Shown here in pieces: positions 28,089 to 38,133 of a stretch of DNA of 64,000 nucleotides. The notes under the pieces are model-generated. The model was not told the origin of the DNA. It was given only the letters and a program-made list of their open reading frames with translations, and ran no database searches. The DNA comes from Hydrogenobacter hydrogenophilus (GTDB lineage Bacteria; Aquificota; Aquificia; Aquificales; Aquificaceae), in the NCBI RefSeq assembly GCF_900215655.1, contig NZ_OBEN01000001.1:62001-126000 (forward strand), given 5' to 3'. The first letter of the stretch is position 1. Each line of letters opens with the position of its first letter. The position numbers and the translations under genes are program-made.

Positions 28089-28107
28089 ATTATAATTATA
28101 CATTATA
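28089..28107 (-). promoter_or_regulatory. Three near-contiguous TATAAT boxes upstream of gyrA
   Basis: On the minus strand, perfect TATAAT hexamers occupy 28107-28102, 28100-28095 and 28094-28089. The last ends seven bases before the gyrA ATG, predicting a leaderless transcript; the others would give leaders of about 7 and 14 bases. The conserved repeat element at 28104-28125 abuts and partly overlaps the first hexamer. Confidence 0.6.
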
Positions 28108-28125
28108 CGCTCAGTAGAGAAATTA
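28104..28125 (-). repeat. Conserved 22/24-base element, copy 1 (gyrA side)
   Basis: The minus-strand sequence matches copies 2 and 3 in its first 14 bases (TAATTTCTCTACTG). It then differs by one base and a two-base deletion before ending in GCGTATA. It faces gyrA and runs directly into the TATAAT cluster. Together with copy 2 it forms outward-facing arms about 120 bases apart. Confidence 0.75.
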
Positions 28126-28198
28126 GTTTAAAGCTAAATTTAGAAACTCAAGGATAAAAGAGGCAAGAGGATAAAGCTCTTTAGTAAAGCTTTGTGCT

Positions 28199-28222
28199 TA
28201 ATTTCTCTACTGGGCGTGTATA
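28199..28222 (+). repeat. Conserved 24-base element, copy 2 (uvrA side)
   Basis: This segment is identical over 24 bases to 34116-34139 and nearly identical to the reverse complement of 28104-28125. It faces uvrA and is followed at once by TAGAAT and TATATT, candidate -10 boxes, about 10-16 bases before the uvrA ATG. The A/T-rich 70 bases between copies 1 and 2 contain no open frame that I can support. Confidence 0.8.
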
Positions 28223-28242
28223 GAATTATATTTTTTTATTTC

Positions 28243-32292: not shown

Positions 32293-33363
32293 ATGAGAAA
32301 AAAGGTAGTCATAGCGGTAGCGGGGAGTTTATTCCTTTTGGGTGCAAGTAAGTCCGAGGATGTAAAGCTACTGGAAGAGGCAAAAAGATACTTTCAACCT
32401 CTTCCAAAGGTAGCAGATAGTAAGGAAAATCCCATCACCCCAGAAAAGGTAAGACTCGGAAAGATGCTTTATTACGACCCTAGGCTCTCAAAGAGTGGTT
32501 TAATAAGCTGCAATACCTGTCATAATCTTGCAACCTACGGTGTAGATAACCTACCCACCTCTGTAGGACACAGGTGGCAGATAGGTCCTAGGAATGCTCC
32601 TACTACGCTCAATGCTGCACTTCACATAGCCCAGTTTTGGGACGGAAGAGCAAAGGATGTGGAAGAGCAGGCAAAAGGACCTATACTCAACCCAATAGAG
32701 ATGGCTATGGACTCACCTCAGGAAGTGATCCAAAGGCTTAGCACCATTCCCGAGTATGTAGAACTCTTCAAAAAAGCCTTTCCTAACGATAAAAATGCTC
32801 TAAGCTATGACAATGTAGCAAAAGCTATAGGAGCCTTTGAAAGAACCCTTATAACTCCTTCAAGGTTTGACAAGTTTTTACAGGGAGATGTTAACGCTCT
32901 TACGAAAAAAGAGAAAGAAGGACTAAAAACCTTTATAGAAGTAGGCTGTGCTGGTTGCCACAACGGTCCAGCTTTAGGCGGTAATATGTTTATGAAATTT
33001 GGTGTTGTAGAAGCTTATTGGGAAGCAACGAGAGACTTTGTCACTTTGGATAAACCTACCGTGCCGGTAGATGTGGGAAGGTTTGCGGTAACTCACAAAC
33101 AAGAGGATCTTTATGTTTTTAAAGTTCCTTCTTTGAGAAATGTGTCAAGGACCTATCCTTACTTTCACGACGGTTCCGTTTGGAGCTTAGAAGATGCTGT
33201 GCAGGTTATGGCAAAGGTACAGTTAGGCAAAGAGCTTAATAAAGATCAGGTAGAAAAAATTGTTGCCTTTTTGAAAACCTTAGATGGAGAGATTCCAAAA
33301 GATGCACTGGAAGTGCCTATACTCCCAGCATCAACATCTAAAACGCCAAAACCTGTTAGATAA
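32293..33363 (+). CDS. ccp: Dihaem cytochrome c peroxidase
   Basis: This periplasmic enzyme reduces hydrogen peroxide with electrons from cytochrome c. The 356-residue protein has an N-terminal export signal (about 1-20) and two c-haem sites, CNTCH (C73, C76, H77) and CAGCH (C219, C222, H223). It also has the conserved QFWDGRAKDVEEQAKGP segment and a C-terminal FHDGSVWSLEDAV. It has its own promoter and is followed by an intrinsic terminator, so it is a single-gene unit. Confidence 0.95.
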   Translation: MRKKVVIAVAGSLFLLGASKSEDVKLLEEAKRYFQPLPKVADSKENPITPEKVRLGKMLYYDPRLSKSGLISCNTCHNLATYGVDNLPTSVGHRWQIGPRNAPTTLNAALHIAQFWDGRAKDVEEQAKGPILNPIEMAMDSPQEVIQRLSTIPEYVELFKKAFPNDKNALSYDNVAKAIGAFERTLITPSRFDKFLQGDVNALTKKEKEGLKTFIEVGCAGCHNGPALGGNMFMKFGVVEAYWEATRDFVTLDKPTVPVDVGRFAVTHKQEDLYVFKVPSLRNVSRTYPYFHDGSVWSLEDAVQVMAKVQLGKELNKDQVEKIVAFLKTLDGEIPKDALEVPILPASTSKTPKPVR

Positions 33364-33370
33364 GTTCTTC

Positions 33371-33394
33371 GGTGGCTGTGTGCCACCTTTTTTT
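33371..33394 (+). terminator. Intrinsic terminator after the peroxidase gene
   Basis: A six-pair stem GGTGGC/GCCACC (33371-33376 and 33382-33387) with a five-base loop is followed by seven T residues (33388-33394). It starts eight bases after the peroxidase stop codon. It is the only clear hairpin-plus-T-tract terminator I found in the window. Confidence 0.85.
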
Positions 33395-33399
33395 CATTT

Positions 33400-34038
33400 A
33401 TGATACTCTTAGATAGGTGTATTAGGTACGTATACGAAAGGGTTTATGGTGAGAGGTTTTACAGGTGCAACTGGGATGTGGACCTGAACTTAACGGTAAG
33501 TGATACAACTTTTGTAGTTTGCGATACAGAAACCACGGGTCTTGACATAAAAAAAGATGAGCCTATAGCCATAGGTGCTCTAAAAATAAGAGCTCTTCAC
33601 TTGGATCTCTCCGAAAAATTTTACAGACTGCTAAAACCCAAAAAATTACCAGATAGATCCTCTATTGAAATCCATGGTATAACACCTTCTGACCTTACAT
33701 CTGTTTACACACAGGAAGATGTAGGTAAGGATCTTTTGAATTTTGCAAAGGGTAGTGTGCTGGTAGGCTACTTTTTCCATTTTGACCTTGAGATGATAAG
33801 AAAGCTCCTCAAAGATCTTTGCCCTTCTATATTCTTACCGTATTTTATTGATGTACTTGACCTTTACCCAGGTGAAAAGCCTTCTGATATGGAGAGTATG
33901 CTTTCTGCTCTCGGAATTCCCTTAAGTGCTCGTCATTCTGCTTTAGAGGACGCCTACATGACCGCTCTTATATTCCTCAAACTTATAAAGCCTTATGAAA
34001 AGAAAAAACTCAAGGCTGTTCCACTTAGAGTGCTCTAA
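33400..34038 (+). CDS. DEDDh 3'-5' exonuclease (DNA polymerase III epsilon-like)
   Basis: This 212-residue protein has the exonuclease motifs in order: DTETTGL (Exo I, about 46-52), the HFDLEMIRKL segment (Exo II) and ARHSALEDAYMTA (Exo III with H and D). It has extra residues at both ends relative to the minimal domain. It could be a stand-alone proofreading subunit or a repair exonuclease. The ATG lies six bases after a terminator, so the promoter would have to overlap that terminator, or expression depends on read-through. Confidence 0.88.
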   Translation: MILLDRCIRYVYERVYGERFYRCNWDVDLNLTVSDTTFVVCDTETTGLDIKKDEPIAIGALKIRALHLDLSEKFYRLLKPKKLPDRSSIEIHGITPSDLTSVYTQEDVGKDLLNFAKGSVLVGYFFHFDLEMIRKLLKDLCPSIFLPYFIDVLDLYPGEKPSDMESMLSALGIPLSARHSALEDAYMTALIFLKLIKPYEKKKLKAVPLRVL

Positions 34039-34115
34039 TAAAACTACACAACCTCTATAATCCCCCACGGTGGGCTAAAAACAAGACTTTTTGCTGTCTC
34101 TCTCTTGGCTTTCTC

Positions 34116-34139
34116 TAATTTCTCTACTGGGCGTGTATA
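34116..34139 (+). repeat. Conserved 24-base element, copy 3 (outside the TnpB element)
   Basis: The segment is identical over 24 bases to 28199-28222. It is followed by TATTAT, a possible -10 box, but no gene begins within the distance seen at the gyrA and uvrA copies. It lies 27 bases before the left-end hairpin of the mobile element. The target gene may have been separated from it by the insertion. Confidence 0.78.
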
Positions 34140-34166
34140 TTATTTATAGAAGACCGCTTTCTAAAA

Positions 34167-34187
34167 CCTCGTATCTATGATGCGAGG
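34167..34187 (+). repeat. Left-end hairpin of the TnpB element
   Basis: CCTCGTAT and ATGCGAGG flank a five-base loop, with one G-T pair in the stem. The same structure occurs at the right end (35645-35665) in the same orientation, as expected for subterminal hairpins recognised by TnpA-type transposases. Confidence 0.7.
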
Positions 34188-34331
34188 ATACAGAAAGCCT
34201 GCATTAACAGTTTAAAATTATTTTGCACGTAATATAGTTAAACCATATAACAGTAATGAACATGTGAATTAGTTAAAGTCAAATCAATATAACATGACAT
34301 TGCAAAAATCAATCAGGAGGTATATCGAGGA

Positions 34332-35668
34332 ATGTCAGCAGCTATGAGATGCTTAACGATATCTTTAAGCAACCTTCCTGAGGAATACAAAATCGTTTTA
34401 GGATATCTTACTTATCACTCTGGAAGGCTTTACAATCAAGCGCTATACCTACTCAAGAACAGAGAGGCTAAAAACTAAAGGATAGCCTACACTTAAGAAA
34501 TCTTCAGTCAAGAACCGCTCAGATTGTTTTAGATGAGCTTGTAAGAGCCTACAAAAACGCTTTCAATGGTCATGCTAAGTTCCCCAAGTTCAGACCAAAA
34601 AATAAACCACATAGAACCTTGACCTACGATAGCACTGGCTTTAAGGTGGTGGGAACTAAGATTAGGCTTTCTCTTTCCAAAGAGCTAAGAAACTGGTTAA
34701 AGGAAAAGCACTCTATAGAACTTACATACCTTTGGATTGAAACAGGACTGGAGCTTGACCCAAGATTGATTAAGAATGTCTAGATAGTCCCAAGAGCTAA
34801 AGAATTTGAACTGCATATTATCTATGAAAAACCACAGACGGAAGCAAAAACCATTAAAACTGATAAGGTAATGGTTTTAGACCCAAACTCTTCTAATTTC
34901 TTTGCAGTTGTAATAGAAGGAGTTTCTGAGCCTTATCTGATTGATGGGAAAGGGCTAAAGAGTTTGCTAAGGAAGTATCTAAAGAAGATTGCAGAGCTCC
35001 AGAAGAGGTTAGACGGAGCTAAGAAGAAAGGATTTGAAACGCATCTTTTGGAAGAGAGGCTTTCAAAAACTTGGCTAAAGATAAAGAGATTACTTAAACA
35101 CTACGCACACACAGTATCGAACCTTATTTTGGAACTTGCACTAAAGCATGGAGTTAAGAAAATCTATGTAGGAGATGCGGTAAAGAACAAGAACAAAGAA
35201 AGCAAGCTAAGTAGCATAGTAGATCAGATATGGAAATTGCTTCCACATGGAAAAGTCAAAGAGTGTTTGGAATACAAAGCTAAAGAGTATGGAATAGAAG
35301 TTGAATACATCTCAGAACATTTTACTTCAGGTGTGGATAGTTCCATAGATGGGACTGTTTGCAAAGAAGCTTACACACCTGAAGCAAGAGTAAAGAGAGG
35401 ACTATACAAAACAAAGCTTTTAGGCTATCTAAACGCAGACATTAATGCATGCAGAAACTTTCTCAAGAAGCTTGGAAAGTTTGACCTAATAAGTGGAGTA
35501 GGAAAGCCTGTAAGGTTGAGAGTTTTTTACAAGCTAAAAGGTAGCTCCGCTATCCTGCTATACGGTAGGATAGGTAGGAGTAGGGGCAGTGTGAACCTGC
35601 CTGTGGTGATAAGGGACACCATAAGTGTCCAAACTCACCCAAAGCCTCGGATCTGTGATACGAGGTAG
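34332..35668 (+). pseudogene. tnpB: tnpB, interrupted by a frameshift and an amber codon
   Basis: The intact 5' frame from ATG 34332 reads into a TAA at 34476. The homologous reading resumes one frame over, consistent with loss of one A from the A-run at 34470-34474. That frame meets TAG at 34781 (a CAG to TAG change would explain it), then is open to 35668. RuvC-like motifs remain: VLDPN at 34877, VGDAV (aspartate where most TnpB have glutamate) and NADINACRN. The usual CxxC zinc ribbon is replaced by an EHFTSGVDSS segment, as in one TnpB branch. The last 40 codons run through the candidate omega RNA and may not be real protein. Confidence 0.85.
35550..35665 (+). ncRNA. Candidate omega RNA (TnpB guide RNA scaffold)
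   Basis: Four hairpins follow one another at the 3' end of tnpB: 35550-35558 with 35565-35573 (including one G-U pair), 35585-35589 with 35597-35601, 35614-35619 with 35625-35630, and the element-end hairpin 35645-35665. TnpB guide RNAs are made from this position, overlap the end of tnpB and carry the flanking DNA beyond the right end as guide. Structure and position support the call; expression is not shown. Confidence 0.55.
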
Positions 35669-35677
35669 TTCACAATA

Positions 35678-36742
35678 CTATTTTCTATTGATGTCTCTTA
35701 GAATCTCCTCAAGTAATGCCTGAGCCATCTCTTCTTCACTTACTCTGCGGATGGGTTTTCCTTCTTTAAAAAGCCACGCAAAACCTTTGCCACACGCAAG
35801 TCCTATATCTGCTTCCTTGGCTTCACCTATGGCATTAACCACACAGCCCATTATGGCTACTTTTATAGGTGTTTTTACTTCTTTTAATTTTTCTTCTACC
35901 TCCTTAACCACTTTTGGAAGGTCTACTTCTATCCTTCCGCATGTGGGACACGCTACTATTTCCACACCGCGCCTTCTTAGTCCCAAGGCTCTTAGGATTT
36001 CGTAAGCTGTTTTTATTTCCACCTCCGGGTCATCTGTTAGGGAAACCCTTACCGTATCTCCTATCCCCATGTAAAGGAGGATGCCTATACCTACTGAGGA
36101 CTTTATTATACCCTTTTGCCCCATACCTGCCTCTGTAATGCCTATATGCAGGGGTATGTCCGTTTGCTCTGCAAAAAGTTTGTTGGCTTTGATGTTTTCA
36201 AGCACATCGGAGCCTTTTATGGAAACCTTAAAGTTATAAAAACCCCATTTTTCAAACTTCTCGCTCCAGCGCATGGCACTTTCAAAGAGGGCCTGAGCAC
36301 ACGGGTAGCGGTACTTTTCCAGAAGGTCTTTCTCAAGAGAACCTGAGTTTACGCCTATCCTTATGGCTACATTCTTTACTTTTGCTTCTTGCACTATATC
36401 CCTTACTATCTCTTCCTTCCCTATGTTGCCGGGGTTTATTCTTATACCATGAACCCCCTTCTCCATGGACCTAAAGGCATAAGAAGGCGCAAAGTGTATG
36501 TCCGCTATCACTGGGATAGGAGACTTCTTTACTATCTCTTCAAGGGCATTAAGATCCTCTTCGTGTGGCACAGCAACTCTTATTAGTTCACAGCCTGCAC
36601 GAGCAAGCCTGTTTATCTGATCAAGAGTAGCGGGCACATCGTGCGTTTTGGTAGAAGTCATGGATTGCACCACTATGGGTGCGGAGCCACCTACTGGAAC
36701 CCAACCTACATTTATCTGACGGGTCTTTCGCCTTTGGATCAT
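35678..36742 (-). CDS. ispG: 4-hydroxy-3-methylbut-2-enyl diphosphate synthase
   Basis: IspG is the [4Fe-4S] enzyme converting MEcPP to HMBPP in the MEP isoprenoid pathway. The 354-residue protein has the N-terminal barrel (VQSMTSTKTHDV, GIRINPGNIG) and the cluster-binding cysteines in VACPTCGR and MGCVVNAIGEA. The plain 350-residue form matches most bacteria. Its ATG overlaps the nadA stop by four bases. Confidence 0.97.
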   Translation of the reverse strand: MIQRRKTRQINVGWVPVGGSAPIVVQSMTSTKTHDVPATLDQINRLARAGCELIRVAVPHEEDLNALEEIVKKSPIPVIADIHFAPSYAFRSMEKGVHGIRINPGNIGKEEIVRDIVQEAKVKNVAIRIGVNSGSLEKDLLEKYRYPCAQALFESAMRWSEKFEKWGFYNFKVSIKGSDVLENIKANKLFAEQTDIPLHIGITEAGMGQKGIIKSSVGIGILLYMGIGDTVRVSLTDDPEVEIKTAYEILRALGLRRRGVEIVACPTCGRIEVDLPKVVKEVEEKLKEVKTPIKVAIMGCVVNAIGEAKEADIGLACGKGFAWLFKEGKPIRRVSEEEMAQALLEEILRDINRK

Positions 36743-37692
36743 GACAGCTCTAACATCCTCATAATGGGTCTTTTGGCTTTTTCTATTATATCTTCTGGCA
36801 AAACTACCTCGTTAAGCTCGTTTTTTAGTGTTTCGTAAACCTTAGGCAAGGTTATAGCTTTCATAGTACAACAGTAAACACTACCGCAGTAGTTCATGGA
36901 TTCCGGAAATATGTATTCTTTGTGGGGATTTCTTTTCATAAGAGTGTACTTTAAACCCACCTCCGTTATTACTATGACCCTTTTGGCGTCGCAAGTAGTA
37001 GCGTAGTTAATTATCTGGGAAGTAGAGCCTACAAAATCTGCCATCTGTATCACCTTTGGATGACATTCGGGATGAACTGCAACTTTCGCATCCGGATACA
37101 TGTTCTTTAGCTTTTGGACTTCTTTTGCTGTGAACTCAAAATGTGGTGGGCAAAAACCCTGCCATATCACAAACTCCTTATCTGGCACGTGCCTTTTTAC
37201 CCAGTTTCCAAGAGCTTGGTCTGGTATGAAGATGATCTTTTTGCTTTGAAGTTTCTGAACTATCTTTACTGCGTTGGCGGAAGTCACACAAATATCTGAA
37301 ACCGCTTTTACTTCTGCGCTAGTGTTTACATAAGCTACCACCTCACCATCAGGGTGCTGTTCTTTGAGCTTTAGCACATCTTTTGCAGTTATCATGTCCG
37401 CCATAGGACAGCCAGATTCAGGGTTAGGATGGAGCACCTTTTTATTAGGATTTACAATTTTTGCGGTCTCGCACATAAAACGTACACCGCAGAAAACTAT
37501 TATGTCCGCATCCGTTTGGCTTGCTTTCCTTGAAAGTTCCAAGGAGTCGCCTATGAAGTCCGCTATATCCTGTACCTCAGGTCTTTGGTAGTAGTGAGCC
37601 AATATTACCGCATTTTTCTCCTTTGCAAGGTTCCTTATTTCTTCCTGCAATTCCCTTGTGTCCTTTTCTGTCATCACCTCTAAGGTAAACAT
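36739..37692 (-). CDS. nadA: Quinolinate synthase A
   Basis: NadA condenses iminoaspartate and dihydroxyacetone phosphate to quinolinate for NAD synthesis, using a [4Fe-4S] cluster. The 317-residue protein has AVILAHYYQRPEVQDIADF, GVRFMCETAKI, SGCPMADMI, HPECHP and a late cysteine pair (CCTMK). ATG 37692 is preferred because TATATT ends eight bases before it. ATG 37674, next to GAGGTG, is an alternative. It forms an operon with ispG. Confidence 0.95.
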   Translation of the reverse strand: MFTLEVMTEKDTRELQEEIRNLAKEKNAVILAHYYQRPEVQDIADFIGDSLELSRKASQTDADIIVFCGVRFMCETAKIVNPNKKVLHPNPESGCPMADMITAKDVLKLKEQHPDGEVVAYVNTSAEVKAVSDICVTSANAVKIVQKLQSKKIIFIPDQALGNWVKRHVPDKEFVIWQGFCPPHFEFTAKEVQKLKNMYPDAKVAVHPECHPKVIQMADFVGSTSQIINYATTCDAKRVIVITEVGLKYTLMKRNPHKEYIFPESMNYCGSVYCCTMKAITLPKVYETLKNELNEVVLPEDIIEKAKRPIMRMLELS

Positions 37693-37721
37693 GAGAATTA
37701 AATATATACCTACTGCCGTGT

Positions 37722-37727
37722 TATAAT
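37722..37727 (+). promoter_or_regulatory. -10 box of atpC, seven bases from the ATG
   Basis: A perfect TATAAT ends seven bases before the atpC ATG, and the gap is just AATTTTT, without a Shine-Dalgarno sequence. It lies in the 42-base gap between the divergent atpC and nadA genes. Confidence 0.6.
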
Positions 37728-37734
37728 AATTTTT

Positions 37735-38133
37735 ATGATCAGTGTTGAGATAGTCACACCACAAGGAATAGTCTTTTCAAGACAGGTAAACTCGGTAAAC
37801 ATCCCCACCCAAGAGGGAGAGATAGGTGTTTTAGAAAAGCACATGTACCTAATGACTCTTTTAAAACCCGGTCTTGTTTATTTTGACGGAAACCCAAAGG
37901 ACGGTATAGCTGTCACTTACGGTTTTGTTGACATAACACCACAGAGGGTGATCATTTTAGCGGAAGAAGCTTACACTGTAGGACAGATAGACGCAGGTAG
38001 GGAAAAAGAGCTTTTCGATCAAGCCATTAAGAAATTAGCAACCGCACAGACCCTAGAGGAGATACAAGAGTGGGAAAGGACAAAGGAGCGAGCTAAAACG
38101 CTCCTTGAAATACTTGAAAGATTTGGAAGTTAA
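37735..38133 (+). CDS. atpC: ATP synthase F1 epsilon subunit
   Basis: The 132-residue protein has the N-terminal beta-sandwich (SVEIVTPQGIVFSRQVNSVNIPTQEGEIGVLEKH) and a C-terminal helical hairpin (about 88-132), so it is a full epsilon subunit coupling rotation and able to inhibit ATP hydrolysis. No other ATP synthase gene lies in the window, so it is detached from the main atp operon. The following methyltransferase gene begins inside it. Confidence 0.93.
   Translation: MISVEIVTPQGIVFSRQVNSVNIPTQEGEIGVLEKHMYLMTLLKPGLVYFDGNPKDGIAVTYGFVDITPQRVIILAEEAYTVGQIDAGREKELFDQAIKKLATAQTLEEIQEWERTKERAKTLLEILERFGS

Follow-up and report, generated by a model that had tools for sequence, protein, structure and literature searches.

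A predicted omega RNA scaffold at the end of a dead tnpB in Hydrogenobacter hydrogenophilus

Between an exonuclease-like gene (33400-34038, + strand) and ispG (35678-36742, - strand), the stretch of Hydrogenobacter hydrogenophilus DNA analysed here (64,000 nucleotides, henceforth referred to as the window) carries an IS200/IS605-type element with a broken tnpB, the last bases of which form a series of hairpins. An initial annotation of the sequence proposed that these hairpins are a retained omega RNA, the guide-RNA scaffold of TnpB. The locus raises the question of what this RNA is, and whether it could still guide a nuclease. We conclude that positions 35574-35673, with hairpin 1 from 35550, are very probably the omega RNA (reRNA) scaffold of an IS200/IS605 tnpB element, which stayed structurally intact after tnpB broke and is most likely inactive or orphaned at this locus.

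The ends of the element were set by comparing copies from several genera, with an uncertainty of ~2 nt for the left cut; the DNA search covered 61 genomes and gave matches in 25. TTTATAG or a close variant stands at the left of nearly all copies whose left end could be read, and on the right the copies cease to share identity at 35673 (...GAGGTAGTTCAC). The element comprises the following features:

34143-34147, + strand: TTTAT, putative transposon-adjacent motif (TAM) and insertion target immediately left of the element, from the comparison of copies
34148-35673, + strand: IS200/IS605 element (IS1341-type, tnpB-only), 1526 bp
34167-34187, + strand: left-end subterminal hairpin, CCTCGTATCTATGATGCGAGG, kept in copies and nearly identical in sequence to the right-end hairpin
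34332-35668, + strand: dead tnpB, 78% identical to an intact 454-aa relative (tblastn), its RuvC and TNB parts still recognisable within the ORF at 34871-35668 (Pfam OrfB_IS605 and Cas12f1-like_TNB)
35668-35673, + strand: GTTCAC, conserved right terminus and 3' strand of a predicted pseudoknot, from the alignment and the end of identity among copies

As befits an IS200/IS605 element, subterminal hairpins stand at both ends (34167-34187 and 35645-35665), a fixed short motif lies at the left, the tnpB is of the OrfB_IS605/TNB type (Pfam PF01385 and PF07282) and full relatives have an adjacent tnpA. No orthologous empty site (TTTAT running straight into the right flank) was found in four congeners, in all of which the gene order left of ispG differs. 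Immediately left of the element, at 34116-34139, is a 24-nt exact copy of one arm of an inverted repeat at 28095-28229 (31-nt arms, 81% complementary, 73 nt apart) that lies between gyrA-like and uvrA-like genes; the repeat looks like another small palindromic element, and the copy like a remnant of it.

The description of tnpB as dead was borne out. Comparison with the intact relative by tblastn places a frame change at ~34472, where ~8 codons are missing, and an in-frame TAG at 34781-34783. An intact TnpB of the same family, which had been envisaged elsewhere in the genome as a possible user of the RNA, was not found in its 20 contigs (estimated 99.99% complete): besides the dead copy, the element is represented by a degraded copy on contig C8 and an end fragment on contig C2, and no match to the TnpA family was obtained in this genome. 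The C8 copy (G000:C8 51769-52415; locus L004 1470-2116) has internal deletions and is cut off after stem 1, so that without stems 2-4 its omega RNA is incomplete. The two remaining TnpB ORFs, of 411 and 422 aa, share 21% and 27% identity with the cognate family over the aligned parts and belong to other lineages. Since neither the cognate TnpB nor TnpA was found in the genome, the RNA in the window is most likely a relic, inactive or recently orphaned. The 411-aa TnpB on C2 (L036 1021-2256) is an intact ORF whose right end reads GAAGC-hairpin-TAGTTCAC (~2206-2240), a terminus common to the window element. It has a sub-threshold RAGATH-18 match at L036 2138-2211 (29.2 bits, E 0.046) and may belong to an IS607-type system. 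Some 480 bp upstream of this ORF ends a CRISPR-like array (L036 ~300-540; repeat CTTTCAATTCCACACGGTACATTAGAAAC).

All four consecutive hairpins of the initial annotation are present in 35550-35665, the third being two-tiered, and they end exactly at the right-end hairpin, as had been claimed. Folded as RNA, this segment has a minimum free energy of -46.8 kcal/mol against -32.8 +/- 3.7 for its shuffles (z -3.83), 0 of 200 of which were as stable; folding as DNA gave a z of -4.31. Beyond the four hairpins, GTGAAC at 35591-35596 and GTTCAC at 35668-35673 are predicted to form a pseudoknot of 6 bp, all six pairs of which are available in the window copy. The parts of the RNA, with their pairing across 30 copies, are as follows:

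35550-35573, + strand: hairpin 1, 5' of the core, from folding; a hairpin of differing sequence stands at the same place in nearly all copies
35585-35601, + strand: stem 1 (35585-35589 with 35597-35601), whose loop holds the 5' strand of the pseudoknot; 100% of cells paired, two-sided changes in 2 of 5 pairs
35591-35596, + strand: GTGAAC, 5' strand of the predicted pseudoknot; 99.4% of cells paired, nearly invariant
35605-35639, + strand: stem 2 (35605-35609 with 35635-35639) around stem 3 (35614-35619 with 35625-35630); 99% paired, two-sided changes in 10 of 11 pairs
35645-35665, + strand: right-end subterminal hairpin, the counterpart of stem 4 of the ISDra2 omega RNA; 95% paired, two-sided changes in 6 of 8 pairs

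The main structure count was based on an alignment of these 30 copies from Aquificota (A1), which was used in place of a MAFFT alignment of the core alone (A2) that misplaced stem 3 in some rows. Overall, 95.0% of the cells in A1 were paired and 25 of the 39 pairs showed two-sided changes, a result that 0 of 500 shuffles reached, whereas shifting the register by 1-3 columns reduced pairing to 38.6-47.3%; the counts include related copies, so that events are fewer than cells, and the shifted controls retain this relatedness. The window copy fits the structure completely (39/39 pairs). Hairpin 1 aligns less regularly across copies, yet a stable hairpin is found there in nearly all of them. The predicted pseudoknot hardly varies, and it is conservation and agreement with a solved structure, not covariation, that argue for it. 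Pairing was also counted in 28 copies lacking a tnpB gene (A3), with 98.2% of cells paired, two-sided changes in 13 of 30 pairs and 36-46% pairing in shifted registers; this alignment was fitted to the structure model and so leans towards the structure, and one member (L015) lies near a short N-terminal fragment of tnpB. Because covariation persists in these 28 copies, the fold is not a coding artefact. The covariation anticipated from comparison with other copies of the element is therefore present, and homologous elements do not differ at the right end, which is conserved in the relatives.

The proposal that this RNA is an omega RNA is supported by the covariation, by its position at the right end, by an ISDra2-like order of stems 1-4 and pseudoknot, and by its residence in a TnpB-bearing IS200/IS605 element. 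The structured RNA overlaps the 3' end of tnpB and ends at the right end of the element, the right-end hairpin stops 8 nt short of 35673 and so places a 3' terminal stem within ~10 nt of the would-be guide, and the terminus would pair with an upstream loop. The assignment by anatomy is good, as a prediction from sequence and structure comparison. Of the Rfam models, RAGATH-18 (RF03064) included, none matched 33000-38000 with an E-value up to 1. A promoter and terminator scan near the RNA returned no more than chance, with no convincing promoter and no terminator-like stem followed by a T-run.

Because identity among copies stops at 35673, the guide would start at 35674, and the earlier placement of its start at ~35668 was six bases early.

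35674-35689, + strand: would-be guide (first 16 nt), AATACTATTTTCTATT, four intergenic bases followed by the ispG stop and last codons in antisense, from the element boundary and the ispG ORF (35678-36742, - strand)

The reading of the guide as the 3' end of ispG in antisense consequently holds for its later bases, while the first four are intergenic. For this locus we infer transcription, processing, TnpB binding, the guide role and the TAM. The last six bases of the RNA would fold back into the stem-1 loop to form the pseudoknot, and the next ~16 host bases would serve as guide. A TnpB carrying this RNA would cut the empty donor site (TTTAT and right flank) left by excision, which would read TTTAT+AATACTATT, and repair would restore the element. 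It had been suggested that the RNA targets DNA matching the ispG end beside a suitable motif, and the genome holds no such target: a search for TTTAT plus guide with up to 3 mismatches returned a single match, at the right junction of the element itself, which has TTCAC in place of TTTAT. No site in this chromosome would therefore be cut, and the expected target is the donor site emptied by excision.

In the genomes of several relatives, the same RNA is preceded by intact TnpBs of ~450 aa, and tnpA adjoins tnpB in genomes G012 and G006. These proteins have OrfB_IS605 and TNB domains, and three acidic residues do not vary among them: D195, E340 and, within NAD, D381 (numbered as in the first sequence). 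In a PDB search, a profile built from seven TnpBs matched OrfB/Cas12f chains (best E 9e-8), and a single-sequence PDB search with an intact relative's TnpB gave no match. The AlphaFold model was poor (mean pLDDT 50.7, pTM 0.37), and the protein comparison therefore rests on sequence. In the TnpB family (L008 1501-2862 and relatives, alignment A4), the usual position of the RuvC-II Glu is taken by the G of IYIGDAV, an invariant Glu stands shortly before YTSG, and the usual zinc-finger cysteines are absent. An RNA model (R1) had matches in 44 of 136 Aquificota genomes, the weaker of which, near E = 1e-3, may be chance, and the named records carrying the element include several Aquificales. The QOAS01 records (L153, L155-L157), from a MAG titled Gammaproteobacteria, hold an Aquificales-type element with 82-91% protein identity; the label of this MAG is probably wrong.

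Among the relatives are also elements of ~310-330 bp with no genes (L051, L052, L107-L111, L124 and others), which have TTTAT, both ends and a complete omega RNA, with differing flanks as guide. Since their flanks, and hence their guides, differ, these copies moved as units. Genome G012 holds five open tnpB copies, seven ~310-bp copies without tnpB and a single tnpA, and G024 holds about seven copies, with tnpB not found beyond tail matches and tnpA not found. It is conceivable, if on balance doubtful, that the gene-less elements are mobile guide RNAs, that many guide loci share a single TnpB acting in trans, and that orphans like the copy in the window are reserves by which a newly arriving TnpB could keep them in place. 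No paper on tnpB-less elements carrying an omega RNA was found in a literature search with incomplete coverage of subscription papers.

Other explanations of the hairpins were weighed against an omega RNA scaffold. They could be mere DNA palindromes of the right end, read by TnpA as single-stranded DNA and with no role as RNA; the right-end hairpin is surely a TnpA site and is indeed nearly identical to the left-end hairpin, and the DNA fold is significant as well. However, the left end has only a single hairpin of this kind; stems 1-3 and the predicted pseudoknot are confined to the right end, the stems covary, and the topology is that of a solved omega RNA, which makes this explanation highly improbable. 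Barely credible is the notion that the conservation is that of the TnpB coding tail, with the fold incidental. Intact coding sequences do extend through the region to the right-end hairpin, but copies without tnpB keep the structure with two-sided changes, contradicting this notion, the corresponding protein tail is disordered in ISDra2 (PMC10097598), and the RNA is the more conserved part: against six tnpB-bearing copies the RNA core is 80-83% identical and the coding parts, the catalytic part included, 63-75%. A role in ending transcription, or in stabilising the 3' end of an mRNA, between two convergent genes (the exonuclease-like one and ispG) would suit the position and the strength of the hairpins, but is very unlikely when the scan shows no terminator-like stem with a T-run and the same structure recurs at unrelated insertion sites in many genomes.

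The remaining alternative accepts the scaffold and differs on its present state, holding that the orphan RNA is functional in trans, being expressed and used either by another TnpB of the genome or by an incoming one. The window copy retains every named pair, TAGTTCAC likewise closes the right end of the 411-aa TnpB on C2, and tnpB-less copies of the RNA have multiplied in relatives. Against this stand the low identity of the other TnpBs to the cognate family (21-27%), the weak RAGATH-18 match that may make the C2 protein IS607-type, a genome without a TTTAT-plus-guide target and the lack of a convincing promoter near the RNA, and we consider such activity unlikely. The preferred reading is that of a scaffold which outlived its gene and is most likely inactive or orphaned here.

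Taken together, the RNA that ends the dead tnpB of the window is a genuine, structurally intact omega RNA scaffold belonging to a known kind, and is probably orphaned in this genome. It is compact (a core of ~90 nt), recognisable by covariation across a phylum of thermophiles and outside current Rfam families, and it illustrates that an omega RNA outlives its nuclease. Of greater interest are the gene-less relatives in which the RNA is kept and for which use by a TnpB in trans is possible; they allow a clear test of whether non-autonomous elements gain protection from a TnpB acting in trans. As small nucleases, heat-stable TnpBs that combine a short scaffold with a putative TTTAT motif would also be of practical interest.

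Palindrome-associated or MITE-like non-autonomous IS200/IS605 derivatives are a known kind of element. The ~310-bp relatives resemble them in having both ends and no genes, and differ in retaining the whole omega RNA with covariation. The RAGATH-18-derived reRNAs of IS607-type TnpBs (PMC11061315; RF03064) are likewise TnpB guide RNAs at the right end of an element; unlike them, the window RNA has no Rfam match, the weak RAGATH-18 match of this genome lying at another TnpB. In a survey of 59 orthologs, omega RNAs of 'Derived' TnpBs (RuvC-III NADXN) had conserved 5' stem-loops and a 3' stem-loop (PMC10278001). The window RNA has both kinds of stem-loop and the relatives' TnpBs an NAD-N motif, whereas their RuvC-II is IYIGDAV, without the usual Glu and with an invariant Glu further on. 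TnpB clades with rearranged catalytic residues exist, one member of which is active (PMC10278001), and the window family may, to judge by its motifs, fall in one of them. The closest view of such a fold comes from the cryo-EM structure of the ISDra2 omega RNA of Deinococcus radiodurans, which has stems 1-4 and a pseudoknot pairing -5U to -3C with -103A to -105G in the stem-1 loop (PMC10097598). Compared with ISDra2, the window scaffold is shorter, with the pseudoknot partner at -83 to -78 rather than -106 to -102; it would form six Watson-Crick pseudoknot pairs instead of three and two non-canonical ones; its motif is TTTAT and not TTGAT; and its tnpB is dead. The ISDra2 omega RNA overlaps the 3' end of tnpB and takes its guide from outside the element (PMC10097598, PMC8612924), an arrangement shared by the window RNA, and in both the order is stem 1, stem 2/3, right-end stem 4 and a conserved terminus that pairs, by prediction in the window, with the stem-1 loop.
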